Positions 882 to 18,239 of a stretch of DNA of 64,000 nucleotides are shown in pieces (positions within the stretch are counted from its first letter, which is position 1; each line of letters begins with the position of its first letter). Source of the DNA: Leptospiraceae bacterium (lineage in GTDB: Bacteria; Spirochaetota; Leptospiria; Leptospirales; Leptospiraceae); NCBI GenBank assembly GCA_015075105.1, contig JABTUZ010000002.1, positions 654,001-718,000 of the forward strand. The letters are read 5' to 3'. The position numbers and the translations under genes are program-made. A model generated the notes under the pieces. That model was given only the letters and a program-made list of their open reading frames with translations. It searched no databases and was not told the origin of the DNA.

Positions 882-2174
882 TCAACCGGCAACCGCAAAG
901 ACCTCACCTTTAAGCTCTCTGATTTTCTCAGGATAAACAACAATTTCAGCAAGCAACTTTCGGTCGGCAGACGTAATATCAAAAGGAACATCCTGACCAG
1001 TACTGAAAAATGTAAATCTCTTATTTAGTGTATCGGCTAATTCTACAAAGCTACATAAAAAATCTGCCTCGTCTGTTTTGGTTACTAAAATTCTGTTGTA
1101 ATTTAAACTTTCGTAAGCTGAAAATACAGACTTTGCATTGCTGTAGGAAGACGTTGCAGAAATCACCAATATATTTTCAACTGAATCTCTCTCAGAAAAT
1201 ACACCTGAAAATTCCTTCATTTTAGAAAAAAATTCAGGATTTCTGTGGCTGTGACCTGCCGTATCTATCAGAATTAATTCTGATCCGTCTCGCAAAAGTG
1301 CTTCTTTCATTTTTTCGGGGTCTTTTGCTGCATAAAACGGCAACTCCATTGTATCCGCATACCTTTTTAATTGCTCGATTGCAGCAATTCTGTAATTGTC
1401 TAAGGTGTATAAGGAAACTGCTTTTCGCATATTTAGGTAATACCTTGCTGCAAGTTTTGCAATCGTGGTAGTTTTCCCGCTACCTGTTGGTCCTACAAAA
1501 AAGATTATCTTTCTTCTGTTTCTGGGAGTTCCCGCAAATAAATCCGAATCTACTGAAATCCTCTCTCTTAGCACTTCAACGCATTTTTCATTTACAAGAG
1601 AGCTTTTCGACTTTTCGATCAAAGACAAATTTTCTTCGAGTCTGTCCATTAATTCGGAAGCATAAAAAGAACTCATACCTTCTGTGATAAGTCTTTCTCT
1701 TAATCTTATCAAATTGGTCGAGAGAGATTCTTTTATAGTAAATTTTGAATCATTTCTTTTTTCGATTTCCTCGTGCAAAGAAAGTCCTAAATTTTTTCTT
1801 TCTGGTTTGATCAATTCTTCTTTTTCTTTTTCAACCAAGATAGAAGTAATCTTTTCTTCTTTTGGGATATCGTCTAACTTATCAGATAGAGTTTTTAACT
1901 CACTTAATGGTTTTGCTTTTTTTGCTTCATCTGTTTTTTGTCGAAGAAGTTCTTTTAAGTCCTGAACTTTCTTTTCTACCTTGTCCTTTGAAGATAGCTT
2001 TTCAGGAATTCCAATCTCGATTTCATATAGTTTCTTTGCAAGAAAGCCAGAACCAAGTACTCCGCCTTCGGTCACTACTCTTTGATCGTAAACATGGGCT
2101 TCCGGCCCATACTTCATCTTCATTTGCATGAAACAATCTTGTATGCTTTTTCCTCTAATTTTTACAAAATCCAT
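882..2174 (-). CDS. flhF: FlhF, SRP-type GTPase for flagellar placement
   Basis: Signal-recognition-type GTPase that directs where the first flagellar proteins assemble at the membrane. The 430-residue protein has the usual FlhF plan: a short conserved N-terminus, a charged low-complexity B region (about 60-150), a helical N domain, and a G domain with GPTGSGKTT (228-236), DTAG (304-307) and TKTD (365-368). It lies 32 bp after flhA and 31 bp before flhG, the usual flhA-flhF-flhG order. In spirochaetes with periplasmic flagella FlhF is expected at the cell ends; that is inference from other species. Confidence 0.96.
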   Translation of the reverse strand: MDFVKIRGKSIQDCFMQMKMKYGPEAHVYDQRVVTEGGVLGSGFLAKKLYEIEIGIPEKLSSKDKVEKKVQDLKELLRQKTDEAKKAKPLSELKTLSDKLDDIPKEEKITSILVEKEKEELIKPERKNLGLSLHEEIEKRNDSKFTIKESLSTNLIRLRERLITEGMSSFYASELMDRLEENLSLIEKSKSSLVNEKCVEVLRERISVDSDLFAGTPRNRRKIIFFVGPTGSGKTTTIAKLAARYYLNMRKAVSLYTLDNYRIAAIEQLKRYADTMELPFYAAKDPEKMKEALLRDGSELILIDTAGHSHRNPEFFSKMKEFSGVFSERDSVENILVISATSSYSNAKSVFSAYESLNYNRILVTKTDEADFLCSFVELADTLNKRFTFFSTGQDVPFDITSADRKLLAEIVVYPEKIRELKGEVFAVAG

Positions 2175-2206
2175 ATTTTTTTATCCACCTTTATTTATAT
2201 ATTTCT

Positions 2207-4333
2207 TTACATTAATTCTTCAACTGGTACGGCAACTTGTTTCGCCGGCTCTGTAGTCAGTGTAATCACTGCATCTATAACCGATTTAGTTATAGTATGA
2301 ATTTCTTCTGCCGCAAGAACTGCAAAATTTCTTGGAGGAAATTCTTTTGCAAGCATATAAGAAAACGGCAAGCGTAAATCTCTTGATACGACTATTATTG
2401 GAAACCTCCCTTCTTTTTGAGATAGGTGGTATCGATCGGTAATTGCATTGATTAACTTAAAATGGTAGTCAGGCGGTAAAGAGATTAAAACGCCTTCAAT
2501 GGGATCACTAACCAAACTTTTGGTGAGGCGATCTGTTATTTTTGCATCCAAAGCAATTACGTGTAACTTTCCGTCAGAGCTCAAATATTCTTTTACAATC
2601 TGATTCGATATCGCCTGACGTGCATTTTCCGATAAGAAATTCGGATCGTTTCTTCCGGTAGTATTGTTTGCAATCGACTCCAATATTGGCGTTAGATTTC
2701 TAATACCAAGTCCTTCTTTTAAAAAGTTTTGCAAGACTTGTTGAATGATTCCAAGGCTGATTTTTTTATCTTCTAACTCACTGACAAGAGTCGGATGGGT
2801 CTCTTTTTGGTGGTCTAATAATTTTTTTACTTCTTCTCTTCCAAGTATGGATGCTGCGTGATTTCTGATAAGCTCAGTCAAATGAGTTACGATCACTGTA
2901 GCGGGGTCAACTACGCTGTATCCTCTGCTTTCTGCATCTAATTTATCCGATGGGTCAATCCAGAGTGCTTTGAATCCATAAGTAGGCTCGATAAACTCCT
3001 CTCCGGCAATAGGGTCTTGCACCTTTTTCGCATTGTCTAAAGCCATTAGTTTATCGGATCTGACTTTGCTCTCTCCGACTATTACACCATGAATTTTAAT
3101 AGCATAGAAATCGTGATCCAATTCCATATTGTCCATGATCCGAACAGGTGGAATTACAAGACCAATATCTATTGCAAACTTTCTTCTAACATTTTGAATT
3201 CTGTCTAATAACACTCCTCCATAGTTTGCATCAACTAATGGAACAAGATTCAATCCAAGCTCCACTTCGATAGGGTCTGTTCTAAGCTCTTTGTAATAAT
3301 CGATCTTTTTCTCTCCCTTGCTTTCAATTTCTTTCTTTTCAATCGTTGCAAGAGTTTCTTTTGTATTTCGATCTATTGTATAACCGAGATAAGCCAGAAG
3401 TGCTGAAAATGCAATTAGTGAGAAAAAAGGCAGCCCGGGTATGAGTGCAGCCAAACCGAGACTTGATGCAACCACATACAAAACTTTTGGATTGTTGAAA
3501 AGCTGTGCCTGAAAATCTTTTGCTAGGTCAGTATCTGAACCGGCTCTAGTGACTATCATACCGGTTGCAGTAGTAGAGAGAAGTCCCGGAATTTGAGATA
3601 CTAAACCATCTCCGATAGTTAATCTTCCATAAGTTTCAATCGCAAAAAGAAAACTTTCACCTCGAATTGATGTTCCAATAATAATTCCACCGATTAAGTT
3701 GATTGCAGTTATGATGAGTCCTGCGCGAACATCTCCTTGTACGAATTTACTCGCACCATCCATAGACCCGTAAAAATCAACTTCTCTTTGAATTTTCTTT
3801 CTTCTTTTTCTTGCCTCCTCTTCTGTAATATTCCCACTCGACAATTCTGTATCAATTGCCATTTGTTTACCGGGGAGAGCGTCTAACGTAAACCTTGCAG
3901 CTACTTCTGCAATTCTTGTCGCACCTTTTGTAATAACAAGAATCTGAACAATCGTTAAAATTAAGAAAATGATAAAACCAACTAAATATTTTCCGAGTCC
4001 TGTCCCACCTCCAACAACAAAAGTTCCAAACGCTTCAATAATATGACTATTGATACCCGGCCCTTGAGATAAAATTTGCCTTGTCGTTGATACGTTAAGC
4101 GCTAATCTATAAAGGGTGGTAATAAGCAGCAAATTTGGAAATATAGAGAAGTCGGAAGACTCTCTAACTGAAAGAGAAGTAATCAAAATAATAAGACCGA
4201 TAGCTAGACTTATTGCAATTAATAGATCAAGTAAAAATCCGGGTAAAGGAACAATGAGCATGCTTACAATTGCCAAGACACCGACGCCCATTATTATATC
4301 TGACTCTTTGTACCATTTTTTTTCTTCGTTCAT
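2207..4333 (-). CDS. flhA: FlhA, flagellar type III export gate protein
   Basis: Large inner-membrane subunit of the flagellar export gate, FHIPEP family. The 708 residues are of normal family length, with about eight hydrophobic helices in the first 340 and a soluble C-terminal domain (about 360-708) that docks chaperone-substrate complexes. The conserved cytoplasmic loop is recognisable around 200-265 ([17 protein letters not shown], then [11 protein letters not shown]). Its ATG overlaps the flhB stop as ATGA, so translation is probably coupled. No truncation or unusual insert is seen. Confidence 0.97.
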
Positions 4334-5460
4334 GCACGTAGCCTTTTATACTTATCTAATTTTGTAATAATAACCGAAACTGCATGAAAGAATTTTTCAG
4401 GGATAGGTTGATTCAATTCAACTTCCTCATACAGCATACGAGCCTGAACTCTATTTTCCACTATTGGGACGTTATTCTCTCTTGCAATTCTTCTGATGAT
4501 TAGTGCAATTTCATCCATTCCCTTGGCAATTACCACAGGAGCTAATTGAACTCCCGGTTCATATACCAAAGCAACAGCATAGTGGGTGGGATTGGTAATT
4601 ACAACGTCAGCAGTTTTGACTTTTTGCAGCATCCCGCTTTGAATCATATCCCTCATTCTTTGGCGACGTTTTTGTAGAATTGCTTTATCACCCTCTTCTT
4701 GCTTCATCTCTCTTTTTGCTTCAGCGGGAGTCATTTTTAGAGATTCTTCAAACTCAAATTTTTGGTAAAAAAAGTCCACTATACTGATTACAAAAAGAAT
4801 AATTCCACAAACTAAAAATATCTTCAGTGATGTGTAAGCAATCATTCCAGTCGATTGGATCACTCCCATATCTCCGGTCATTAAAACAGGTAAAAAATCA
4901 AAAGAGATGATGATATAACTTACCCAACCGATTAGAATTATTTTTAGAATAGATTTACCTAAATTAAAAAGAGTTTGACGAGTGGGCAGTACTTTCTTGA
5001 AGTTAGGCGACACCCTTGCTAAATCAAATCTGAGTGCTCTCGGTGAAAATAAAAACCCTACTTGGACGACATTTCCTATGATTGCTGTTATGAATGTTAT
5101 CCCAAGAATTGGTAATAGCAAATAAGAAATCTCTTCAGCGACAGACCTCGACAAAGCTATGAGAGCTTCTGCACCAAATTCATTATTTTTTGCAATTCCA
5201 TGAAAGTATTTTTTAACCATAAAAGAAAATCGAAAAAAGAGATACTTGCTCAAGAAAAAAATTAAAACCACTCCTGCAATCATCACAAGTGCTGAAGGAA
5301 TTTCGTTTGATTTAGGAACATTTCCTTTTTCTCTTTCCTCACGCCTTGTTCTTTCACTTGCTTCTTCTGTACGACCTTCATCTTCTGCAGCAAATAATTG
5401 GAGTCTGATCCAATACTTTAAATCTGGATCATTTTCTGAAATGACTTGATCTAAGCTCAT
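4330..5460 (-). CDS. flhB: FlhB, export gate and substrate-specificity switch
   Basis: Inner-membrane export component that self-cleaves to switch from rod/hook to filament substrates. The 376-residue protein has four membrane helices (about 55-75, 112-138, 172-195, 210-232) and the cleavage motif NPTH at 290-293, so the autoproteolytic Asn-Pro bond is present. An N-terminal stretch of about 20 residues precedes the usual TEEAS/EREKG segment and is slightly longer than in enterics. The start overlaps the fliR stop and the stop overlaps the flhA start, both as ATGA. Confidence 0.97.
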
Positions 5461-6242
5461 TTATCAGGCCACTCGCTCAATAGATTGTTGATTCTGTCAA
5501 AGGTAATCTCAAAACCATGAACCATTTGTTTTTCGATAAATGGCATAATAGCGATTAAAACAAATATACCGACGACTAATTTTACAGGAAAACTTAGATA
5601 CATGATATTCATCTGGCTTGCAGCCTTTCCCATGAGTGCTTCTGCAATAGTAATCAAAAATAAAATCCCAAGAACAGGTAAGGCAATTTTAAATGCTACA
5701 AGAAACATAGCTCCAAAGGTATATTCAAAAGTTTTCAATATCCCGGAGTTGACCTCACTGGTAAATCGAATCATCTGAATTTTTTCAAAAGAAAATGCAA
5801 GGCTTTCAAATAAGATTCTATGTCCACCCGTAATCAAAAAAATAACTATCGCCATTAGATTTTTTAATGTACTGATTACAGGATTGGAAGTTTGACTTAC
5901 AGGGTCTAAAACCTCAGTATAGCCAAATCCTATCTGTACGCTAAAAAATTCTCCTGCCATCTGAAAAGAGGCAAAGATAATATTTACCAGAAACCCGATA
6001 AGTATTCCAATGAAAATTTCTGAAGCCACCAACAACGCATAAGTTCCCATACTTCCCGGGACAGGAGGCATGTATCCGGATGCAAATGGGAAAAGAATTA
6101 TACTAAATAGGAAAGAAAACATCATCCTGACTGCAAACGGGATTGAGTCGGCAGAAAAAATCGGAGCAACTGTGAGTAAGCCTAAAATTCTTGTCAGAAT
6201 TAAAAGAAATACTTGAAAGTTATTTACAAAAGGCTCGATCAT
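5457..6242 (-). CDS. fliR: FliR, flagellar export gate membrane protein
   Basis: Integral membrane subunit of the FliPQR export channel. The 261 residues are almost wholly hydrophobic with about six helices. They contain the family segment around 90-120 (FQMAGEFFSVQIGFGY, then DPVSQTSNP), which fits FliR/SpaR/YscT. It lies between fliQ and flhB with 4-bp ATGA overlaps on both sides, the canonical order. Length is normal. Confidence 0.95.
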   Translation of the reverse strand: MIEPFVNNFQVFLLILTRILGLLTVAPIFSADSIPFAVRMMFSFLFSIILFPFASGYMPPVPGSMGTYALLVASEIFIGILIGFLVNIIFASFQMAGEFFSVQIGFGYTEVLDPVSQTSNPVISTLKNLMAIVIFLITGGHRILFESLAFSFEKIQMIRFTSEVNSGILKTFEYTFGAMFLVAFKIALPVLGILFLITIAEALMGKAASQMNIMYLSFPVKLVVGIFVLIAIMPFIEKQMVHGFEITFDRINNLLSEWPDK

Positions 6243-6502
6243 ATTTTTTCAATTACCAAAAATAAATTTCTCGTATAGTCAGTTAATGTCTTAATCATCC
6301 AAGGTGAAAATATAACTATGACTACAAAGATAGCAATTAGTTTTGGAACGAAGGCTATTGTTTGCTCTTGAATGGATGTAGTGGTCTGAAGTATTCCTAC
6401 AATAAATCCTACAATCAGTGCTGAAAGTAAAATAGGCATAGAAACTTTTAAAGTAACTGTAAGAGCTTCACGTATTAAAGTCACTACATCAACTTCTGTC
6501 AT
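6239..6502 (-). CDS. fliQ: FliQ, flagellar export gate membrane protein
   Basis: Small membrane subunit of the FliPQR export channel. The 87 residues form two hydrophobic helices (about 15-42 and 50-75) separated by a loop with [10 protein letters not shown], the typical FliQ signature. An AGGAG ribosome site six bases before the ATG is clear, and the start overlaps the fliP stop by 4 bp. Family length is 85-90, so it is intact. Confidence 0.95.
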
Positions 6503-7308
6503 TTGTAACTCCTGACTAATTCATAAACCAATAGATTCCAACCATCTACCAATACGAATAAAATCAACTTTAGAGGAAGGCTCACCATTACAGGAGGAAG
6601 CATCATAAGACCCATAGAGACAAGCGCACTTGCCACAACCAGATCAATTATTATAAAAGGGATAAAGAGATAAATTCCTATGATGAAGGCTTTTTTTAAC
6701 TCCGATAGCATAAACGCCGGAATCAATACATAAGAGGGAACATCTTCAAAAGATTTTACATTTTTCACTTTCCCCAATTTTAAAAATAGTGCAACGTCTT
6801 TTGTTCCGGATTGACCGATTTGTTTCATCATAAATTCTCGAAGAGGTACCATAGACCTTTCAAAAAAAGTATTTGTATCTATTTTTCCGTCGAGGTAGGG
6901 ATTGAACGCTTTCTCGTTTACAACTCCAAGAGTGGGAGCCATTATAAAAAAAGTCATAAACAGCGCAAGCCCCATCATCACTTGATTGGGTGGAAGGTTT
7001 TGTATGGAAAGTGCCCTTCTTACAAAATCTAAAACTATTACAATTTTGGTAAATGATGTAACACTCATGACTATTGCCGGTGCAAGTGAAAGTATTGTCA
7101 GTAAAAACAAGATCATCAACGAAAGGCTGGTTTCTCTTGGGGTTTTGGCTTCGTTTACATTAAAATTCAAATTTGGAATTGGGAATCTTGTACCACTTGC
7201 TTGTGCAAATATTTCACTTGAGAAAAGACTGATACCAATTAGAAATAAAATTGATGCGAAAATAGTTTTTTTATGTCGCATTATTTGAGAAAATTTTTTA
7301 AAATACAT
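6499..7308 (-). CDS. fliP: FliP, flagellar export gate membrane protein
   Basis: Core membrane subunit of the flagellar export channel. It has a cleavable-looking signal sequence (about residues 12-36, ending near IFAQ) and then the FliP body. The hallmarks are [15 protein letters not shown] and the C-terminal segment [19 protein letters not shown]. The open frame begins at a TTG at 7314, in TTGA overlap with the fliO stop. I prefer the ATG at 7308 because GGGGA lies about nine bases before it; an ATG at 7281 just before the signal sequence is also possible. Downstream it overlaps fliQ by 4 bp. Confidence 0.95.
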
Positions 7309-7310
7309 TT

Positions 7311-8042
7311 TCAAATATCCCCAAATAGTCCTGACTGATCATTTTTTTTTAGGTTTAATCTTTCTGATTTCAAGCTTTCTAATTTTTCTAATTGCCTTTT
7401 TCGGATTTCCTGTATGACCTCTTCTTCGTTTTCAGAAAATTTGGAATCTGCTTTTCCAAATCCGGGAAATTTTAAATCGACACCTTTTAGAGTGTGTAAA
7501 AAAGTAACAAGAAAATTTTCTTCTGTTGATTCAATGGAGCTTTTTGAATGATAGATTCTTTCTTTGATTTCAGGAGATTCTATTTCTTTTATAAGGTTCA
7601 CTGAATTGTCTGAAACTCCGATAATAAGTAAGATCCCGGAAACATCTACAATCTGCAATTGCTTACCTTGAGATACAGGAAGACTTGATAGCACTTTCAT
7701 CACTCCGTGAACAGGGTAGCGAGCATTTTTTGTTTTCGATAGAATTTTCAGTATATAGTACAATGCACCAATTAAAATCCCAAATACAATAAGAACTTTC
7801 ACCAAGTTCCAAAGAATTCCTGACTCTTCTTCTTTCGGACGAAATCTTTCTTCAACAGGATTTACTTCTTGGGTGGGTTCTTTTTTGGGTTTAGATTCTT
7901 TATCCTTTTCGTTTAAGGATTGTAGTCCAAGTTCCTTTCTCAAGGATTCATCCATAGAATCTTTTTCTGATTGGCCAAAAATTCCACTTGTAGTAAAAAC
8001 AAATAGAATAAGAATTAATGAAGAAAAAAACCGACTCTCCAT
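7311..8042 (-). CDS. fliO: FliO-like flagellar biosynthesis protein
   Basis: Bitopic membrane protein that helps assemble FliP. The 243 residues have a signal-like N-terminus ending near GIFGQ, a charged Lys/Glu-rich periplasmic linker (about 28-75), and one membrane helix (about 79-100, [20 protein letters not shown]). A small FliO domain follows ([19 protein letters not shown]). A longer charged tail extends past the usual domain. Sequence conservation in FliO is low, so position between fliN and fliP is strong support. Its AGGAG site lies in the 13-bp gap after fliN. Confidence 0.88.
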
Positions 8043-8055
8043 AAATCAGGCACTC

Positions 8056-9132
8056 CTATTTCCCTTCACCTTTGATTCTATCTGTTGGGCTGACAATATC
8101 AGTTACGCGAACACCAAAATTTTCATCAATAACTACCACCTCACCTTTTGCAATGAGTTTCCCATTCACAAGTAGATCTACAGGCTCACCGGCAAGTTTG
8201 TCTAATTCAATAATAGAGCCTTCACCTAATCCAAGAATATCTTTAATATACATTTTTGTACGCCCAAGCTCAACAGTTAAAGCCATCTGAACGTCCATCA
8301 ATAGATTCAGGTTTGTAGCTCCACTTGGAGAGCCTGCAGTTGATAAGGAAGGAAATCCTACAGACTTGATCCCCAATTGAGAAAGAGATTGTCCTGCACC
8401 GGGATTCATGTTGATATTCATCCCGCCTGTTCCTGAGTCTTGCTGTTTATTCACACCTCCTCTTTTGGAAATGGTAAGCATATCGTTTGCAGTAGATAGG
8501 GACAATAGATAATGCACTTTGAAGGAAGGTATTCCATCAATAGATACGTTTAAGGAAGTTCTAATTAAAGTTGCACCATCAGGGAGAATTAGGTCTGAAG
8601 GAGTTTTTACTACAGAAATATTTGCAGGAGTTCCATTCACCGAAGCATTCAACTTCAATCCTGTCTGAGCGGTTACTGTGCCTATAATCGGTGAAAGGCT
8701 ATCTTTTAGAGTTTGAATTTGGGCTTCGTCCATTTCCCCTGTGGACATACCACCCATCATTACATTGATAATTTTAGATGCGTTGTCGATAGACATGATA
8801 AACGCAACTCTTCCCGAAAAAGATCCACTCAAATCTGAATACATGCAAATTGAGTTTGAGCCTAACTCGGCTTTTAGCTCTGCCGGCGTTTTTGTTTCAG
8901 AATTTGGGCTTGAGATTCTAACATTTTTGGAAAGAATCGTTCCCAAAGTATTTCCGGCCATAGAAAATGCAGAGCCAATCAATTCTGCAATTATATCTCT
9001 ATCTACAGGAGATAGTGCATCCGATCCACCTCCACCCGTTGCTACGGCAGAGCCGGAAGTATCAAAGCTTGTTTCGTCTGCACCTTGCAAAAGTGCATCT
9101 ATTTCATCTTGAGAAAGTGAACCTTCTCCCAT
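8056..9132 (-). CDS. fliN: FliN/FliY-type flagellar motor switch protein
   Basis: C-ring switch protein. At 358 residues it is far longer than enteric FliN (about 137) and matches the FliY plan. The N-terminal peptide LSQDEIDALLQG (6-17) is of the FliM/FliY kind that binds phosphorylated CheY. A CheC-like middle domain spans about 45-235, and a Gly/Asn/Met-rich linker follows at about 236-275. The C-terminal SpoA/FliN domain (about 280-350) has ELGRTKMYIKDIL and GEVVVIDENFGVRV. Whether the CheC-like part is an active phosphatase cannot be judged here. It is the first gene of the minus-strand operon that runs to flhG; no clear promoter could be fixed in its 89-bp leader. Confidence 0.93.
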   Translation of the reverse strand: MGEGSLSQDEIDALLQGADETSFDTSGSAVATGGGGSDALSPVDRDIIAELIGSAFSMAGNTLGTILSKNVRISSPNSETKTPAELKAELGSNSICMYSDLSGSFSGRVAFIMSIDNASKIINVMMGGMSTGEMDEAQIQTLKDSLSPIIGTVTAQTGLKLNASVNGTPANISVVKTPSDLILPDGATLIRTSLNVSIDGIPSFKVHYLLSLSTANDMLTISKRGGVNKQQDSGTGGMNINMNPGAGQSLSQLGIKSVGFPSLSTAGSPSGATNLNLLMDVQMALTVELGRTKMYIKDILGLGEGSIIELDKLAGEPVDLLVNGKLIAKGEVVVIDENFGVRVTDIVSPTDRIKGEGK

Positions 9133-9221: not shown

Positions 9222-10208
9222 CTATTTGCATCCTGAAATTTTACTTATTTCTGTAGTCATTTTATTAATTGGGATAGGGTCTTTTTTATTTGGAGAAATA
9301 TGAAAAGATTTTCCTCCTTCCGCCCATTCCACTCCATATCCTAATGCAGATACTTCCGTTCCGTAATTAGTCCCGACAAAACACAATGGGAATTCTTTTG
9401 CTGTGGAAACCGTAGTCTTCTCTAAGGAAATCACTCTAACCTGATTTTTTTCCTTAATATAAATAAATTTTGAATTTTCTGACCAAGTAATTATATCCGA
9501 TAAATGAAAGCCTGTCCAAAGTCCAATTTCTTTAAACAGGTTATTTTCTTTTAAAAGCGAAACTACCCGTATATTAACACTTTCAGGAGATTGGTTTTGT
9601 TCTTTTGATGTTCCAATAGCCAACTTTTCACCATCCGGAGAAGGTATAGCAAAAACTATCACACTACTTCCTTTATTTTCTGTTAAAGGAATCGGATTTT
9701 TGTCTCCTATTTGCAAAATATATAGGCTTCCATTTTCTGTACCGTACTCATTGTTTGACGAGCCTTTAAAGAAAACGATCCTACCTGTCTTTTCGTGGTA
9801 ATACACTGAGGTAGGTAAAATCCATGAATCTATGATTTCCGATTCCCAGACTTGTTTTATAGAATTTTTTTCTTCTATCTTGAATATTCTTAGTTTGGAT
9901 TTATAATTTTTTTTGCGAGTTGTTCCATTCAAAGGATTCCAAGGGTCTTTTTCTTTGTACAAAAGTTCAAGAGTCACATAGCTTTTTCCAGTTTCAGACC
10001 AAGAAGGCTCCACTAACATAGTTGAATTTCTCCAAAAAAGAAGAGAGCAAGATGAAAAGCACATACTATATACCATAAAAAATAGCACTAATAGAAAAAA
10101 TCTTTTTTTTTGTGCAACTCTTTGAAAAAGAGGGTAAACATATTTTAAAAGGGTATTAGACTGTTTTGTTGGCAGAGCCATGGAATTCAAAATTAATTTT
10201 CTATTCAT
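9222..10208 (-). CDS. TolB-like beta-propeller lipoprotein, function unknown
   Basis: Probable membrane-anchored propeller protein; I do not recognise a specific function. The N-terminus has a hydrophobic helix ending in a lipobox-like FSSC about 50 residues in, and the rest is beta-rich. A PD40-type repeat is visible (PSPDGEKLAIG) and weaker ones such as TWSENSKFIYI. An ATG exists at 10226, but the ATG at 10208 is preceded by GAGGA at good spacing and gives a more normal secretion signal, so I use it. It follows the giant lipoprotein gene by about 20 bp and is surely co-transcribed with it. Both proteins carry propeller repeats, which suggests a shared envelope role (inference). Confidence 0.75.
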   Translation of the reverse strand: MNRKLILNSMALPTKQSNTLLKYVYPLFQRVAQKKRFFLLVLFFMVYSMCFSSCSLLFWRNSTMLVEPSWSETGKSYVTLELLYKEKDPWNPLNGTTRKKNYKSKLRIFKIEEKNSIKQVWESEIIDSWILPTSVYYHEKTGRIVFFKGSSNNEYGTENGSLYILQIGDKNPIPLTENKGSSVIVFAIPSPDGEKLAIGTSKEQNQSPESVNIRVVSLLKENNLFKEIGLWTGFHLSDIITWSENSKFIYIKEKNQVRVISLEKTTVSTAKEFPLCFVGTNYGTEVSALGYGVEWAEGGKSFHISPNKKDPIPINKMTTEISKISGCK

Positions 10209-10229
10209 ACAATTATTTCCTCGCATAAT

Positions 10230-13200
10230 TTATTCAACAAGTAAAGTACTGGTGTACAATCTATAACCATTCCAGTGAATCTCATCAGGATAATTTTTTT
10301 TCACCTCTGAAATTGCGTCTATAAATCTTTCTTTGAGAGATTTTTTTATTCGAGATCGTAAAAATAGATTTTTCAAAAAATAAACATTGCTCAAATCTTT
10401 TTGAGAGCCGATAGAAAACACCCCAGGCCCGTAATGGATTTTATTTATAAATTGAAGAGTAGCATTTATATCATCCGAGTAAAAGGACGTTTCGTGTAGA
10501 TACGAAGAAGACAAAAACCAATTTCCTGTGCGTTTGCCAAATCGCTCAATATCAAGAAGAGGAGAGCCTCCGTAATAAATTTCTTTATTGTCTTTTAGTA
10601 AAATTTCTTCTTGAGATAGAATTACTTTTGAGTCGAATTTTTTTCCTGTTACAGTTTCTGCTTCTAGATTTTCCAATCTTTTCAATTTCAAAAACCAATC
10701 TTTAGAAAAGTTGGTGTTTTTCTTTTTCTCCAATGAAAAGTTGGGTGAAATATCTTCTGAAATATTGTGTGCAGTTCGATTCAATAATTCTCCGGGGTCA
10801 GTAACCAAATAGAAATTGTCGTCTTCTCTATATTCCAATGGGGCTTTAAAATGGTAGGAGCTTAAATACAAATACGTTAGGCGATTTTTGTCTAATTTAA
10901 TTGACTTCCTGTATCTTTCTTCTATTGCTTCTTTCTGTAAAATTGCGTTCCCATTTTCTTGAAGATTACGATAATAGTCTGTTAGGCTGTCATAAACAGG
11001 ACGATTGTCTTTGAACGCTAACTCTCCGTTGGACTTCCCGTTATAGAATTTTATAGAAAAAGTTTGCAATCCAAAATCAAAAACACTGAGTAGGGTTTGA
11101 TTCTTGGGCAGTGCTTTGAAAAGCTCGTAAGACACAGTTTTGAATCTTGGGAGTTTCCCAAAATTTGAATTTTGGCCTATTATTCTTTCGTTCCACCCTC
11201 GAATTTTATCTTTGGCAAGTCCGAGATCAAAAAATACTTCTGAGTTGTTTGCTTTGAAAGACAGGTGTTGCAAGTAAGTTACCAATTGGATTAGCTCTCT
11301 TTTAGAAAAAGTTTCTATTGTGTTCTTTGATTTTTTTTCTATGACCGAATTCAAATATTCTACTAATTTTTTTACCTCAGTTTTTTGAGCCGTTTCGTAA
11401 AAAGAATATTTTTCGGGTAATTTTAATTTCAAAAAAGCAGTTTCTTCATCTAAAAATTTTAAATCTTTGTTTAAGAGGGAATACCTGAATTTTAGATATA
11501 AAAATCGTAAGAACTTTTCTTGAGTTGAGTTGTGGATAGAAGTTTCTTTTTGAACTTTTTCAATATATTTTTTTGCTCCAGAATTATCGCCTTTTTCAAG
11601 AAGACATTCAGCCCAAACAATCATCATAAGTTGAGCCTTGCTTAAGTTTCCTAATTCATTTTCTGTTTGTAGAATTTTATCGAACAATGAATTTATCTCT
11701 CCACTCAATTGCCCTGGAATTGATTCAGTTAAAATATAAAACAATAAACTTCTATCTATAGAGTTGATATAGTAAAGAGTCGATTTTCCATTTTCTAATT
11801 CTTCCGGTGATAGAAACAAAGGAATAAAATCTCTTCCAACACTTAGTTTTTTAAAAGTTTTAAGAATGTCTCTTTTGTAATCTCTCACTACGCTTTCAGA
11901 GAAAGTGTTCTCATCATTGTACAATTGTTGAACTTTCGTGTCGAACTTGTCCCATTCTTTTTTTACAGCATAATAATAAGCACTTCCGTCATCTTTTAAA
12001 TTCATGGTTACCGGATTTTTTCCGTAAAGAAAGACCTTTTCGATTTTTGAAATATTTGAATCTTCTAATTCTGAATTTATTCCAATAGAGTTAGAGAGAT
12101 TAGTCTCTCTATCCGGGTTATCGATAAGATTTTTCTGAAGAATTTTTCGTAATTCTGAGTATAAAAAAGGATTATTGTCTTTAGAATTGTTTTGCAGATA
12201 ATCGGATAAGTTCTTATCGAAATCGATCAATTTTCCTGAGTAGATATTCCTGAAAAATCCAATGTTCTTTATATACTTAGAATTTGTAGAGTTGGTATTC
12301 TCTGAAACCTTGTCTTGAAATTCTTGATCAAACTTTTTACAGTCAAACTTTACTAAACCTAAAAAACAAGACTTCACTCTCGAATACAAGACTAAGTTTA
12401 ACTTTTCTGCATCCTCTTTGTATTTTTCAATTAGTTTATCAAAATGTTTGAATGAGGATTCTTCTCTATAAATTTTTACTTTAGTAGAAGACACAAGTAT
12501 TTCAGAATCTAAAATTTCCTTCTCGTATTTTTTATCGAGAGAATACAAAGCAGATTCATATTGAATTAGAGCTTCGCTTAACTTTCCTTTTTTTTCTAAT
12601 TCTATTCCTGTTTTTAAGAATCTATCATAATCATTTTTATTTATAGATTCTTCTTTGTTGAAAATTTTACTGCCTACCAAAGAAATCAGACTAAGCTCAT
12701 TAATAAAATTTTCATTTTGTAAAATTTTCTTTCTAATTGCCGTGTTGTCGTTCCCTTCACTAACATAGAAAATATCTCCGACTCCGGAAGAGCGAAAGAC
12801 TTCAGACGAAAATGCAAGTTTTTCAAAATTTCTTTTTGCAAATTTAAAATTATTAACCAAGACTTTTGAAATACGAGTATTCTTTTCAAATATTTCTTTT
12901 AAATTAATGTAACCGGGTATAGATTCCCCAAAATAATTTCTTGTATAAGAAAAATCCAAAGATCCATCGAGAGTATCCGGGACATAACTATCGCTTCCTA
13001 GCGAGCTTTTTTTGAAAATCATATAGGATTCCGATTTGTTTAAAGCGGGCTGAATTTCTTTGTCACCGAGTATTGCAAAAGCTCTCTTTGTTTGCCCGCT
13101 TCTCATTTTCTTAGCGTTGTTATCGAGCTGGCTTGACAAGAAAGCATAACGGACTTTCAATACTTCTCCTAAGAGTTTCTCGCCGATTTTCATTTGTGAA

Positions 13201-16200
13201 AAATTTAATACAAAAGTGTTAGAATCTGGAATAATAATTGTTGTAGTGCTTTTCTGAATATCATTTTGAATTTTTGTTAAAAAATCTTCGATAGTTTTTT
13301 TTAGGTTTCCATCTTTTTTTTCTAAATTGGTGAAAGAGTTTTCTTCTTTTGATATTTTGTTTATAAGTAAATTATTTCCTATGTCTATAAATCGTAAAAT
13401 CAATTCTCTCCCTGAGGGTTTTGGAATAGGGTTGAAGGTCATCGCAGGATCAAAGAAATGCGCTTTTTCTGGAAAACTTGTTTGAATTTGTTTTAGTTTT
13501 GTAAAAATCTTTTCGCGAACTTTTGCTTTTCTATTTGTGTATGTTTCTACGGATTTCTTATCTGTCCAGTTGGTTTGAATTTTTTGTTCCAAGAAGCTAC
13601 TTTCTTCAAAAAGCCCTTGCAACTCCGAATACATTTTAGATAGATCGGCAGACTCAAAATTCAAATTTGAAAGAAGTACGCTTTTAAAAAAATTCAATTT
13701 TATAATTCTGTCTTTTGACTCAAACATCTCAGAGTATTTTTTCTGAGCTAAATATATTTTATTTTTTAGTATATGAATATCTTCAAAAATTTTATTGTTC
13801 AAAGTTAGAACTAATTCAGGGTTATTCCCGATTATGGATTCTGCTTCTAAAACTTTTCGTAAAGCGTCGTCAAACGATTGCTTAGTCGTATTTTCGTTAT
13901 AAATAAATTCAGATTCTAAAATTTTCAGGTAGATCATTTCTTCTAAGAAATTTCCGTTGGAGGCAAGCTCTCCTGCAAACTGTAGATTTGTCCGAAAATT
14001 TTCTTTATCCCCGAGTTTTCTGTAAAGTTTGATTAGATTGATTAAGATTCTGGTTCTTTCTTTTTTAGAAAATGGATCTCCCGAAAGTCCAATCATACTC
14101 ATTTCAATTTGAGAAGGGTTTTTCAAATACGGGAAACTTAATCCGAAATAATAGTTTGCTTTTAAAGACTCGCCTTGACTTTGTAAAAATTCTCCCTTGT
14201 AAAAATACAATACACCTAAGAGAGGCTCATAGTTATTCCATTCTTTGTAAAAATTATCTTCGCAGAATTCCTCTTTTTCTAATTCAGATTTTACCAATCC
14301 GTCTGTATCTATTCTTTCGCTACATTCGTTAAAATACTCTTTTCTTTCGTTTAAATATATTTCAATAAATTCATTTAGTAAACTCATTTTTGAATCTATG
14401 TCTGATTCTCGGGTAATAGTTTCAAGAAGGCTGACGCTTGAGTCTCTCAAGAATCTTCTTGCTTCTTCTGTGTTTCCTTCTTTTTTCCGCAACCTGAAAG
14501 ATTCTAAAAACTTTTTATAAGAAGTGAAATAGTCTCCCTTTAAATAGTTGCTCGTAGCAAGCATCGGCTCCGTAAAATTGAGAATTCTTTTGCCTGCAAC
14601 ACTTTTTATTAGATCATTTGCTTGAATGAATTTTTTTCTTTTTTCAAATAATTTTGAAGCCTTGGAAAATTCGTTTCTTTCCAAAGAGTTTTCGATCATA
14701 ATTCCCTTTGCGAGTAAATTGTGGTACTCAGGAGGAAAAGCTCCCGGAAACCTACCATCTCCAATAACTCGTACGCTATCCGGCATGAGGATATTCCAAA
14801 CTGAAAAAGAAGTTAGCTTTTTGAATGTTCCCTTTTTATTTTGAATCGTAGCCTTCTCTGCTAATTTTGCATAACGATCCGAGTTTTTGAATTCTTTCCT
14901 TTTTTGATAGCATATCGCTATAGCATTGTACAAGCTGGAATTTTCTAAGTAATGGATTTCCCTGTTCATAGCGAGGGCTTTTTTGTAATAGCCTATTGCC
15001 TGACTGTATTCGAGAGACTCCATTGCCGCAAGACCGGTTAAGGCAAAAAGTAAACTAAGTTTTCTTTTTGCTTCATTTAATGGATTTGTCAATTCGTTTG
15101 ATTCTTGAGTTAAAGTTTTGGCTTTGGAGTATGCGATATAATACTCATTTTTATAATAAGTTGATGTTGCTTCTTTCAACTCAACTAAAGCATTTTCAAA
15201 ATCAGAAAGATAAATCAATGTTCTACCAAAATTAAAATGAAACAATGCTTTTTGTTTATAATTTTCAAATTGAGTTTTAGAAACTATAAATTTTTCCATT
15301 TTTTTAGTAATGTCGTAGTGTTCTTTTGCTCTTGGATAATTACTTAATAAAAAATAATTATTCGCAAGATTCAAATTCAAATCTGAAAGAACTTTCTTAT
15401 TAGGTGAGTTTCCAAGAAAATTTAAAATTTGTCTATACAGCTCTATATTTTCTTCAAAGTGTTTGCCCGGAAAAAATTTCTCGTATTGAGCTTGGAATAA
15501 TTCTTCTTCGGTGGATTCTTCATCTGAATTTTTTGAAGACCTTACAATATCTATATATTGGTACAACCAACCTAATAATTGGTAGGCATCGGTAAACATT
15601 GGGTCTGCAAAAATAATCCATTTTAATTCGTACTCTGCTTTTTTAAAATCTTCTAAGATAGAAGCTTTTCGAGCTTTAGTCATAGCTCCTGCGGAATAAT
15701 ACGCATTTTCGTAAATCACTCCTTTATTAATCAGATAATAAGCATAACCATAGAGAGATGCTAAATACAAATGAGGTCTTGCTCTGGGTAAGCCTTGCTT
15801 AAAGTGCAATTCAATTAGTTTTGTAGCTTCGTCGCCTAACACTTCGATTCCCTGTAAATCTCGAAAGTCTCCGAGTACTTTTAAATTTTTCACTCCTTTT
15901 ACATCCGTAACTTTTGACAAGGCACCTGTTACGTTTCCTACAACATTGACCCCACCTTCCCCAAGTAGATTGATCTTACTCAAAATGCTTTTTCGTTTAT
16001 CGTCTGCTAATTTTTCTCCGTAACGGAAAATTGATTCAACCATTCTTCTTTGATAGTAGATCGCATAATCGCGGTAGAGTGTGTCTAAAAATAAATTTTT
16101 TGATTTCAACAAAAACATATTTTCTGTGTTGTAGAAATAGTGAAGTGCAGCTTCTCTTAGGTTCCCAATTTTTTCGTGCTCGATGGCTTTATTTTCGTAA

Positions 16201-18239
16201 TAACGAAAAGATTTTTCGATTTCTGCTTCTTTTAATTCTACCCCCAGAGCCGGGTCGTAATTTTCTAAATACAATCTCAACTCATCAAAAGAGCCACTAA
16301 CACTACCGAGGCTTTCAAAATTTTTTGATTTTAAGAGATGACTTTTTAAAAACAGAGGTCTTGCAACCGGAACTTTATTCAAATAGCTATCAACTAAAGT
16401 ATTGCTTTCAGAAAATTTTTTGGCTTCGTTCAAAGCCAATGCTTTAATATAAAGCATCAAAGCATCCATCATGGCAGAAACTGTTGGAAGTTTATTTTCT
16501 GTAATAATCTTTTCTGTTATTTGGATTTTTTCATCCGGTGTGCGATTTTGAGAGATTTTATTTTCGATATCTTTTTCAAGAATACTGATGTCTTCTTTTT
16601 TAGATATAGGGTCATTCATAATCTCGATATATTCTTTAGGTAAAATTGTAGAAGTACTTTGAAACTCTAAGGCTCCGATTTTTTGCTTAATCTCTTTTGA
16701 TAAAAAATATTCCGGGTAGCTTGCCAACAACTCACGATAGGTCTGAATGGCAGAAGTTGTGTCTTGAGTTTTAAGCTCTACGTCTCCTATATGATTTAAA
16801 ATTGCCCCGGATACATTCCTATTGATTGAAGGAGTATTTCTAACTTGCTGAAAATATTTTTTTAATAAAGGCAGTTGATTTTTATTTTCTTCTTCCGACT
16901 TATAGCTGATGTACAAAGCGTGAGAAAGGGCATGGTTCGGGTCTAATTTCGTTTTCTCCATTTTTTTTAGAATCTCATCGGCAAATTTAGAATTCCCTGA
17001 TTTCTTACTCTCTTGAACTTTGATCAGTTCTATTTTGGAATTGTAAATTGGAAATAATTTATCTTCTCCAAAAAATAATTCGACTGAATCCAAAGCTAAA
17101 AGGAAACTTTCATAGGAATGTTTTTTTCTATATCGAAGAGAGTATTCCATTTGCGAATCAATTGTATCTTGCTTTGGGACAGAACCGGATGCAGGAATAA
17201 AATAAATATTGATTGAATTGTGCAAAGATTCAGAAAATAAAATACTTCCACCGTTAAAATTGGAGTATTTTGTATCAAATACGGAGGTCTTTCCTGAAGA
17301 AAATAACTTTTCGATTTTATTTTCTAAATTGACCCGAACGATATAACTATTATCTCTTTCGTCTAACTTCCCATTTTTGTTGGTATCTTTTCTGATTGAA
17401 GTATAAAATAAATACTTTCCGTCGATTGACAAAGAAGGAGAGAAGTCCATATAAGAGTCGTTTGTGAGACGCTCTTCTTTTCCAGTGCTAAGATCATAGA
17501 AATATATCTCTCCATTAGGATCGTCTTTGAAGGATAAAAATACGATTTTTTTTCCGTCGAATGACCAAAAAGGTGAAGCTCCTCCTTCTTTAGTTAAAGG
17601 CTTCATTTCATTTTTTTTCTTTAAATCAGCTAACACTAAATTTTGTTTTCCGGGTGAAAATCTTTCGCTGGAGAATACCAAGAAACGAGAGTCGGGAGAA
17701 AAAGCAGGATCGGTATCAACTAACCTCTCTTTTCCTGAAGATTTTATGTAATCAGGATTTGTGATCACTTGGTAATCAGAAACTTCTGGTTGATTTCCTT
17801 TAGCAATTTCACTCACCCACTTGGAAGGATTAATTTTTAGAATAGCAATATCTCCCTCCGAATCAAATTCTTCAGTAACATAAGCGAGAGTTTTTCCGTC
17901 CGGACTAATCGCAGGTTTATATTCGTGAGATGGGTGTCTTGTAACAAGACTCACTACAGAGCTTTTTAAATCTCTAAACCAAATATCATTGTTCCCTTCT
18001 TGATCTGTGGTAAAGAAAAGAAAATTCCCATCAAATGTAGTAGAGTTGTAGAGATTGTGTCCTCTGTGAACAGTTAAAGGAAAAGGTTTTTCGTTTGAAG
18101 GAGTAAAATAATTTTTAGATATAGAAGAATATTCAAAATTCAATGGTTTGATTTTTACGGATTTTTGAAATAAGGCACATTGGAAAAAGGAAAAAGAAAA
18201 AAATACAATTACAAGTTTTCCTAAATGTTGAAAATTCAT
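10230..18239 (-). CDS. Giant lipoprotein: PD40 propeller, long TPR/helical region, CHAT-like C-terminus
   Basis: A 2669-residue predicted lipoprotein of unknown function. The signal peptide ends in lipobox FFQC with Cys21. Residues about 65-310 hold at least five PD40 (TolB-type) blades, such as ISPDGKTLAYV at 111-121 and WSFDGKKIVFLSF at 225-237. A calcium-loop-like DTNKNGKLDERD lies at 285-296. From about 430 to 2250 the sequence is helical with scattered TPR-like units, for example YSQAIGYYKKALAM and GKLSEALIQYESALYSL. The last 330 residues resemble a CHAT protease fold (YLYLSSYHFKAPLEY, then GPGVFSIGSQKDL and the helix after it), but I see neither the His-Gly nor the catalytic Cys, so it looks inactive. 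GGGGAG lies six bases before the ATG. The frame is uninterrupted for 8 kb. Confidence 0.8.
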   Translation of the reverse strand: MNFQHLGKLVIVFFSFSFFQCALFQKSVKIKPLNFEYSSISKNYFTPSNEKPFPLTVHRGHNLYNSTTFDGNFLFFTTDQEGNNDIWFRDLKSSVVSLVTRHPSHEYKPAISPDGKTLAYVTEEFDSEGDIAILKINPSKWVSEIAKGNQPEVSDYQVITNPDYIKSSGKERLVDTDPAFSPDSRFLVFSSERFSPGKQNLVLADLKKKNEMKPLTKEGGASPFWSFDGKKIVFLSFKDDPNGEIYFYDLSTGKEERLTNDSYMDFSPSLSIDGKYLFYTSIRKDTNKNGKLDERDNSYIVRVNLENKIEKLFSSGKTSVFDTKYSNFNGGSILFSESLHNSINIYFIPASGSVPKQDTIDSQMEYSLRYRKKHSYESFLLALDSVELFFGEDKLFPIYNSKIELIKVQESKKSGNSKFADEILKKMEKTKLDPNHALSHALYISYKSEEENKNQLPLLKKYFQQVRNTPSINRNVSGAILNHIGDVELKTQDTTSAIQTYRELLASYPEYFLSKEIKQKIGALEFQSTSTILPKEYIEIMNDPISKKEDISILEKDIENKISQNRTPDEKIQITEKIITENKLPTVSAMMDALMLYIKALALNEAKKFSESNTLVDSYLNKVPVARPLFLKSHLLKSKNFESLGSVSGSFDELRLYLENYDPALGVELKEAEIEKSFRYYENKAIEHEKIGNLREAALHYFYNTENMFLLKSKNLFLDTLYRDYAIYYQRRMVESIFRYGEKLADDKRKSILSKINLLGEGGVNVVGNVTGALSKVTDVKGVKNLKVLGDFRDLQGIEVLGDEATKLIELHFKQGLPRARPHLYLASLYGYAYYLINKGVIYENAYYSAGAMTKARKASILEDFKKAEYELKWIIFADPMFTDAYQLLGWLYQYIDIVRSSKNSDEESTEEELFQAQYEKFFPGKHFEENIELYRQILNFLGNSPNKKVLSDLNLNLANNYFLLSNYPRAKEHYDITKKMEKFIVSKTQFENYKQKALFHFNFGRTLIYLSDFENALVELKEATSTYYKNEYYIAYSKAKTLTQESNELTNPLNEAKRKLSLLFALTGLAAMESLEYSQAIGYYKKALAMNREIHYLENSSLYNAIAICYQKRKEFKNSDRYAKLAEKATIQNKKGTFKKLTSFSVWNILMPDSVRVIGDGRFPGAFPPEYHNLLAKGIMIENSLERNEFSKASKLFEKRKKFIQANDLIKSVAGKRILNFTEPMLATSNYLKGDYFTSYKKFLESFRLRKKEGNTEEARRFLRDSSVSLLETITRESDIDSKMSLLNEFIEIYLNERKEYFNECSERIDTDGLVKSELEKEEFCEDNFYKEWNNYEPLLGVLYFYKGEFLQSQGESLKANYYFGLSFPYLKNPSQIEMSMIGLSGDPFSKKERTRILINLIKLYRKLGDKENFRTNLQFAGELASNGNFLEEMIYLKILESEFIYNENTTKQSFDDALRKVLEAESIIGNNPELVLTLNNKIFEDIHILKNKIYLAQKKYSEMFESKDRIIKLNFFKSVLLSNLNFESADLSKMYSELQGLFEESSFLEQKIQTNWTDKKSVETYTNRKAKVREKIFTKLKQIQTSFPEKAHFFDPAMTFNPIPKPSGRELILRFIDIGNNLLINKISKEENSFTNLEKKDGNLKKTIEDFLTKIQNDIQKSTTTIIIPDSNTFVLNFSQMKIGEKLLGEVLKVRYAFLSSQLDNNAKKMRSGQTKRAFAILGDKEIQPALNKSESYMIFKKSSLGSDSYVPDTLDGSLDFSYTRNYFGESIPGYINLKEIFEKNTRISKVLVNNFKFAKRNFEKLAFSSEVFRSSGVGDIFYVSEGNDNTAIRKKILQNENFINELSLISLVGSKIFNKEESINKNDYDRFLKTGIELEKKGKLSEALIQYESALYSLDKKYEKEILDSEILVSSTKVKIYREESSFKHFDKLIEKYKEDAEKLNLVLYSRVKSCFLGLVKFDCKKFDQEFQDKVSENTNSTNSKYIKNIGFFRNIYSGKLIDFDKNLSDYLQNNSKDNNPFLYSELRKILQKNLIDNPDRETNLSNSIGINSELEDSNISKIEKVFLYGKNPVTMNLKDDGSAYYYAVKKEWDKFDTKVQQLYNDENTFSESVVRDYKRDILKTFKKLSVGRDFIPLFLSPEELENGKSTLYYINSIDRSLLFYILTESIPGQLSGEINSLFDKILQTENELGNLSKAQLMMIVWAECLLEKGDNSGAKKYIEKVQKETSIHNSTQEKFLRFLYLKFRYSLLNKDLKFLDEETAFLKLKLPEKYSFYETAQKTEVKKLVEYLNSVIEKKSKNTIETFSKRELIQLVTYLQHLSFKANNSEVFFDLGLAKDKIRGWNERIIGQNSNFGKLPRFKTVSYELFKALPKNQTLLSVFDFGLQTFSIKFYNGKSNGELAFKDNRPVYDSLTDYYRNLQENGNAILQKEAIEERYRKSIKLDKNRLTYLYLSSYHFKAPLEYREDDNFYLVTDPGELLNRTAHNISEDISPNFSLEKKKNTNFSKDWFLKLKRLENLEAETVTGKKFDSKVILSQEEILLKDNKEIYYGGSPLLDIERFGKRTGNWFLSSSYLHETSFYSDDINATLQFINKIHYGPGVFSIGSQKDLSNVYFLKNLFLRSRIKKSLKERFIDAISEVKKNYPDEIHWNGYRLYTSTLLVE

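Follow-up and report, generated by a model that had tools for sequence, protein, structure and literature searches.

The window, a 64,000-nucleotide stretch of DNA from a Leptospiraceae bacterium, encodes a giant exported lipoprotein that we are inclined to read as a scaffold or docking partner, outside the cytoplasm, for an intermembrane lipid bridge of the YdbH/YdbL type. We directly established its domain make-up, the loss of its catalytic dyad, its operon, and its co-occurrence and co-duplication with partner genes, and it is on these observations that the reading is built.

A giant lipoprotein family spans the Spirochaetota

The gene occupies positions 10230..18239 on the minus strand (as do all features given below), running from an ATG start to a stop at 10230-10232 and coding for 2669 residues, in agreement with the open reading frame of the initial annotation. 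Its relatives, found throughout the class Leptospiria, are 2419-3069 aa long and consist of open frames without internal stops; the length of the giant is therefore not due to chance. We collected 44 giant loci by an alignment-based search; scanning genome contigs with the giant as a single sequence gave zero matches. A profile of its central region matched 40 of the 48 genomes of the class, and a profile of its core, a family-specific conserved region at residues 800-1290 (14370-15842), found giants in 84 of the 393 genomes of the phylum. The family is phylum-wide and not confined to the Leptospiraceae. Rfam gave no matches within the window, and the matches of a promoter and terminator scan stayed roughly at chance level. 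We found no paper on a giant pseudo-CHAT/AsmA/YdbL system in the library searched, which leaves out most subscription journals.

The protein opens with a signal peptide and lipobox (residues 1-21, FFQ-C21; 18177..18239). Cys21 is present in 97% of 37 aligned giants of the class and is invariant in a separate 27-row alignment, and the claim that the protein is a bacterial lipoprotein holds. In giants of several families outside the class, the lipid-bearing cysteine is followed by Asp at +2 (CDD, CDE). Asp at this position is an inner-membrane retention signal in E. coli, a rule that may not hold in spirochaetes. The relatives at locus L109 and at L123, the latter from candidate division LCP-89, have an apparently plain signal peptide. 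The membrane in which the giant is anchored is something that we infer.

Short giants of 1429-1794 aa were also seen, in which a C-terminal CHAT domain was not detected. Four of these (1429-1787 aa) lie at L105 (10025-14314), L119 (7246-11604), L193 (5100-10454) and L195 (8188-13551), and at L105 and L119 the next gene comes directly after the short giant. Since these forms do without a detected C-terminal CHAT, they suggest that the core of the protein is the propeller plus the first helical region.

The propeller carries a nearly invariant calcium-type loop

The propeller and residues 800-1250 are the most conserved regions of the giant in the 37-sequence alignment. The former, a PD40/TolB-like beta-propeller, spans residues ~50-360 (17160..18092) and was recognised by Pfam PF07676 in five stretches (E 5.3e-24), as had been proposed from the letters of the DNA. 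Within it, residues 285-296 (17352..17387) form an EF-hand-like calcium-binding loop, DTNKNGKLDERD, which has the spacing of an EF-hand loop and is nearly invariant: D285 and D296 are conserved in 100% of the 37 sequences, N287 in 97% and D293 in 92%. Outside the class, most relatives share the motif, as does LCP-89.

In NCBIfam the propeller comes closest to TolB, and this raises the reading of the giant as a TolB-like envelope factor that uses its propeller for outer-membrane constriction or for peptidoglycan linkage, the AsmA-like neighbour described below being only co-transcribed. We regard this as quite improbable: the match reaches 88.5 bits, far under the 343 bits of the TolB equivalog cut-off (TIGR02800), and mere co-transcription would not lead one to expect the one-to-one co-duplication of the giant with an unlinked AsmA-like gene.

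Helical repeats lead into a CHAT fold that has lost its dyad

Behind the propeller lies a long helical, TPR-like stretch of degenerate repeats (residues ~400-1600; 13440..17042), and a second helical-repeat stretch covers residues ~1881-2370 (11130..12599). Pfam TPR matches in the giant are scattered and all sub-threshold, and an AlphaFold model folds residues 2150-2370 into helical repeats, for the most part at a pLDDT above 85. The helical repeats that had been described for this part of the chain are thereby borne out, with the exception of residues ~1605-1880 (12600..13427), which look alpha/beta and CHAT-like rather than TPR-like, albeit weakly. Compared with CHAT profiles by hhalign, this segment scored 33% and 12%, the alignment keeping register both where CHAT starts and at the 'IIPDS' strand, and we tentatively describe it as a candidate second, more decayed CHAT-like domain. 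A clearer internal CHAT stands at the matching place in L174 and L176; the proteins at these loci (L174, 4925-11638; L176, 7-7056) each carry an internal and a C-terminal CHAT-like domain, the latter without the dyad.

The C-terminus (residues ~2371-2669; 10233..11129) had been described as resembling CHAT without a visible dyad, a description that our results support. Using 16 homologues, AlphaFold (AF2) modelled residues 2150-2669 with confidence (pLDDT 84.6, pTM 0.87). Among the PDB matches of this model, Foldseek ranked Craspase TPR-CHAT chains first (E from 4.6e-8 upwards), followed by separase and ciliary C1 and then by DdvA; at E <= 0.001 there are 26 matches, each of them to a chain of TPR-CHAT, separase or ciliary C1. 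The structure prediction proposed as a check on the C-terminus has thus returned a CHAT/separase-type fold, placed behind TPR-like helices, and not an unrelated one. By sequence, Pfam CHAT (PF12770) gave zero matches in the window giant at E <= 10 and left its class relatives unmatched as well. Ten CHAT-profile relatives were scanned and eight scored above the Pfam cut-off; C-termini from other spirochaete classes passed it with 24.8 (L109), 28.3 (L122), 33.7 (L163), 28.2 (L166), 33.8 (L169), 58.0 (L174) and 32.4 bits (L176), and the LCP-89 relative scored 225.6 bits. When the profile of the class C-terminus was aligned by hhalign to a CHAT profile of the Pfam-CHAT-positive relatives, the two matched at 97.3% (E 2.5e-11, 265 columns). 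Because the C-terminus profile, searched against PDB sequences, matched almost only designed TPRs, the fold assignment rests on structure and on these intermediate sequences.

In the dyad columns, the window giant has Glu2545 at the His position and Ser2578 at the Cys position. The catalytic His (HG) and Cys are both absent in 21 of 21 spirochaete sequences compared, whereas the LCP-89 relative keeps both; the C-terminus is therefore a CHAT-derived pseudo-protease and not a CHAT protease. The suggestion that the domain sits outside the cytoplasm and has lost catalysis fits, as judged from sequence, every spirochaete member examined. In LCP-89 itself, the locus L123 (9312-18313) reads as a DUF1318-like gene, then a 2811-aa exported PD40-TPR-CHAT protein with the His-Cys dyad, then a FecR-like gene, and this protein is possibly of the active ancestor type, outside the phylum.

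Two further readings start from the CHAT fold. The giant could be an overlooked exported CHAT protease that uses non-canonical residues, an idea that the fold and the His and Cys of the LCP-89 relative speak for; we hold it to be very improbable, as both dyad columns are unconserved across the 21 spirochaete sequences and neither an invariant Cys nor an invariant His turned up within the domain. It could likewise be a defence or cell-death protein, a common setting of CHAT, with a CHAT/TPR architecture as in Craspase. Of all the readings we give this one the least credence: the giant is exported and its dyad lost, it forms a stable family in 40 of the 48 class genomes with co-duplicating partners of lipid-transport type, and in the loci that we read through no defence neighbours were recognised.

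The giant shares an operon with AsmA-like and DUF1318 genes

The giant has two conserved partners, one an AsmA/DUF748-family protein of ~1000 aa, the other a DUF1318 lipoprotein of ~200 aa that resembles YdbL. The three genes form an operon, with the giant in third place, in the majority of the order's genomes and also in other spirochaete classes; gap lengths across families run from -19 to +15 bases, overlapping genes included. In the AsmA-like protein, Pfam recognised DUF748 in 17 of 21 sequences (best 5e-11) and AsmA in 11 of 21 (best 2e-11); its model (pLDDT 81.7) shows N-terminal helices followed by an extended all-beta structure, whose PDB neighbours by Foldseek, weak and with low TM-scores, are ApoB, the bridge-like lipid transfer protein LPD-3, LptD and the N-terminus of Vps13. 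A direct match to YdbH was sought by aligning the AsmA-like alignment with E. coli YdbH alone and was not found by hhalign; we kept the AsmA-family assignment on the grounds of Pfam and the model. A solved-sequence search for the AsmA-like family found none.

DUF1318 was recognised by Pfam in 23 of 27 second-gene proteins (best 4e-13), and hhalign matched the protein to E. coli YdbL at 95.9% (E 6.5e-9). In E. coli, ydbH (AsmA family), ynbE (lipoprotein) and ydbL (DUF1318) form one operon-like row. The spirochaete operon has the AsmA-family protein and the DUF1318/YdbL protein and has no YnbE-like small lipoprotein: no separate small lipoprotein is conserved in the operon in the loci read, and the idea that the DUF1318 N-terminus is a fused YnbE was rejected, as the DUF1318 alignment showed no similarity to YnbE.

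Of note, the giant is followed at L109 (13114-14232), L166 (3429-4574) and similar loci, which belong to several families outside the class, by a gene for a secreted FecR-like protein of 351-381 aa, recognised by inspection.

In the window, the gene directly downstream of the giant is a 334-aa ORF (9222..10226), which the initial annotation took for a second propeller lipoprotein forming a pair with it. Its position and a lipobox-like start stood up; no Pfam or NCBIfam match supports a propeller. Homologues of the 334-aa protein are present in 22 of 48 genomes (its own included), and because none adjoins a giant in the 21 other genomes, the pair is not conserved. We accordingly rejected it as a unit, and comparison of neighbourhoods places the ORF outside the conserved system. 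Both genes stand at the upstream end of, and on the same strand as, a run at 882-9132 that reads, by inspection and length, as a flagellar export cluster with FliN-, FliO-, FliP-, FliR-, FlhB-, FlhA- and FlhF-like members.

Giant and partner genes co-occur and co-duplicate

We measured co-occurrence in 345 genomes of the phylum outside the class, counting strong matches to the giant's central region. The giant was found in 35 genomes and the AsmA-like gene in 36, with 35 in common. Put otherwise, the AsmA-like gene is present in 35/35 genomes with a strong giant match versus 1/310 without (table 35/0/1/309; Fisher p = 3e-47, a value that overstates the evidence because the test ignores shared ancestry). 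DUF1318 adjoins the giant in 30 of these 35 genomes, and the remaining five are split over contigs. The single exception, genome G202, encodes a longer protein of at least 4394 aa (L182, 1-13182), adjoining the AsmA-like and DUF1318 genes and sharing with the family only the propeller end, where the propeller is the same. Within the class, two genomes that are more than 90% complete (G033 and G034) have none of the three genes.

In the window's family, some genomes have two copies of each gene. The giant tree and the AsmA-like tree of this family resolve the same two paralogue clades, unlinked second giants included, with only moderate support at some forks and long branches for two AsmA-like rows. 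In the window genome the genes are unlinked: the giant (G000:C2:664233-672239) lies ~120 kb from the AsmA-like gene (541672-544698) and the DUF1318 gene (544694-545296). In genome G002 (locus L074), the clade of the window gene is still linked to its partners; the window gene has therefore left the ancestral operon while keeping its one-to-one partner. These matching trees, being free of any linkage effect, are the strongest evidence that the giant and the AsmA-like protein share a function.

Rearrangements of the locus were noted elsewhere. Genomes of family f14 have the AsmA-like and DUF1318 genes without a giant beside them; one of these encodes, unlinked from the pair, a lipoprotein of 2319 aa that matches PD40 and TPR weakly (L172, 3560-10519), which may be a divergent equivalent of the giant. 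At L152 (9050-14332) and L153 (9789-15083), where the giant has moved away, DUF1318 is followed by a 1760-aa protein with kinase, AAA, GAF and SpoIIE-phosphatase domains, and a STAS-like gene stands upstream of the AsmA-like gene.

The co-occurrence also bears on whether the giant is an envelope sensor or regulator, whose calcium-type propeller and TPR/pseudo-CHAT parts would sense the state of the envelope (misfolded protein, calcium or lipid imbalance) and, via DUF1318, determine how active or how stable the AsmA-like bridge is. The overlapping order of the DUF1318 and giant genes, the conserved EF-hand-like loop, the FecR-like gene after the giant outside the class and in LCP-89, and one weak PDB match to the transmembrane anti-sigma factor DdvA (E about 1e-3) would fit such a role. 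We nevertheless consider it unlikely, as no regulatory partner is conserved phylum-wide and the giant equals the AsmA-like protein in its breadth of occurrence, a pattern better suited to an obligatory part than to a regulator that is optional.

A candidate lipid bridge and its known counterparts

Returning to the scaffold reading, the giant would be one subunit of a conserved three-part envelope system of the Spirochaetota, alongside an AsmA/DUF748-family protein, presumably anchored in the inner membrane and extended by its long beta-structure, and a putatively lipid-anchored DUF1318 (YdbL-like) protein. The giant itself would contribute an exported, lipid-anchored chain whose propeller bears a calcium-type loop and which continues into a TPR-like superhelix and a dead CHAT. 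Phospholipid transport to the outer membrane has been proposed for YdbH, TamB and YhdP (PMC8593681); YdbH has the outer-membrane lipoprotein YnbE as its working partner (PMC12977461, PMC11784454). By analogy, we infer that the AsmA-like protein carries lipid across the periplasm in physical contact with the giant, which as a membrane-anchored scaffold would dock, position or regulate the far end of the bridge. The propeller may then serve as a calcium-stabilised interaction platform, and the TPR and pseudo-CHAT parts may bind peptide or protein, the CHAT pocket being a binding site instead of a protease. Counting against this reading are the Asp at +2 and the apparently plain signal peptides of some relatives, the missing similarity to YnbE, the negative comparison with YdbH, the weak Foldseek matches of the AsmA-like model and the family f14 genomes in which the pair has no giant beside it. 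The initial annotation had already thought of a scaffold, and the exported, dyad-less protein agrees with this; what it missed are the conserved AsmA/DUF748-like and DUF1318/YdbL-like partners, which point to intermembrane lipid transport as the likely pathway.

The route of lipids and glycolipids to the spirochaete outer membrane has been described as unknown (PMC11784454). Because its gene travels phylum-wide with two lipid-carrier-related genes, the giant may be a missing part of outer-membrane building. More broadly, and as a tentative proposal to which we give somewhat less than even credence, outer-membrane building in the Spirochaetota could depend on a lipid bridge in which a giant separase-like pseudo-protease serves as the lipoprotein partner, the CHAT fold, familiar from cytoplasmic proteases, having been recruited to the periplasm, stripped of catalysis and made an obligatory scaffold for AsmA-type lipid transport. 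These results name a phylum-wide, testable candidate lipid-transport system together with its largest, unannotated part, and they place a CHAT/separase-type fold outside the cytoplasm without its catalytic dyad. As a living relative keeps the active site, the change from protease to scaffold is open to study.

Several known systems resemble parts of this one. Csx29/Craspase TPR-CHAT and separase likewise join helical repeats to a caspase-like CHAT, yet they are cytoplasmic proteases with a His-Cys dyad (for the dyad, PMC9729208), whereas the giant is exported, lipid-anchored, fused to a propeller and dyad-less. TolB shares a PD40 propeller within an exported protein; the giant differs from it by its score and by a conserved operon without a Tol-Pal gene. 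The outer-membrane partners of AsmA-family proteins include TamA and the lipoproteins TamL and YnbE (PMC12977461, PMC12045153, PMC11784454). TamB-TamL of Bacteroidota also pairs an AsmA-family protein with a lipid-anchored partner (PMC12045153), although TamL is a TamA-like beta-barrel lipoprotein and no barrel was seen in the giant. Finally, E. coli ydbH-ynbE-ydbL, too, combines an AsmA-family protein, a DUF1318 protein (the homology to YdbL noted above) and a lipoprotein in one operon; the spirochaete DUF1318 protein is longer than YdbL and has a lipobox-like start, and in place of the 61-aa YnbE there stands a ~2600-aa propeller/TPR/pseudo-CHAT lipoprotein.
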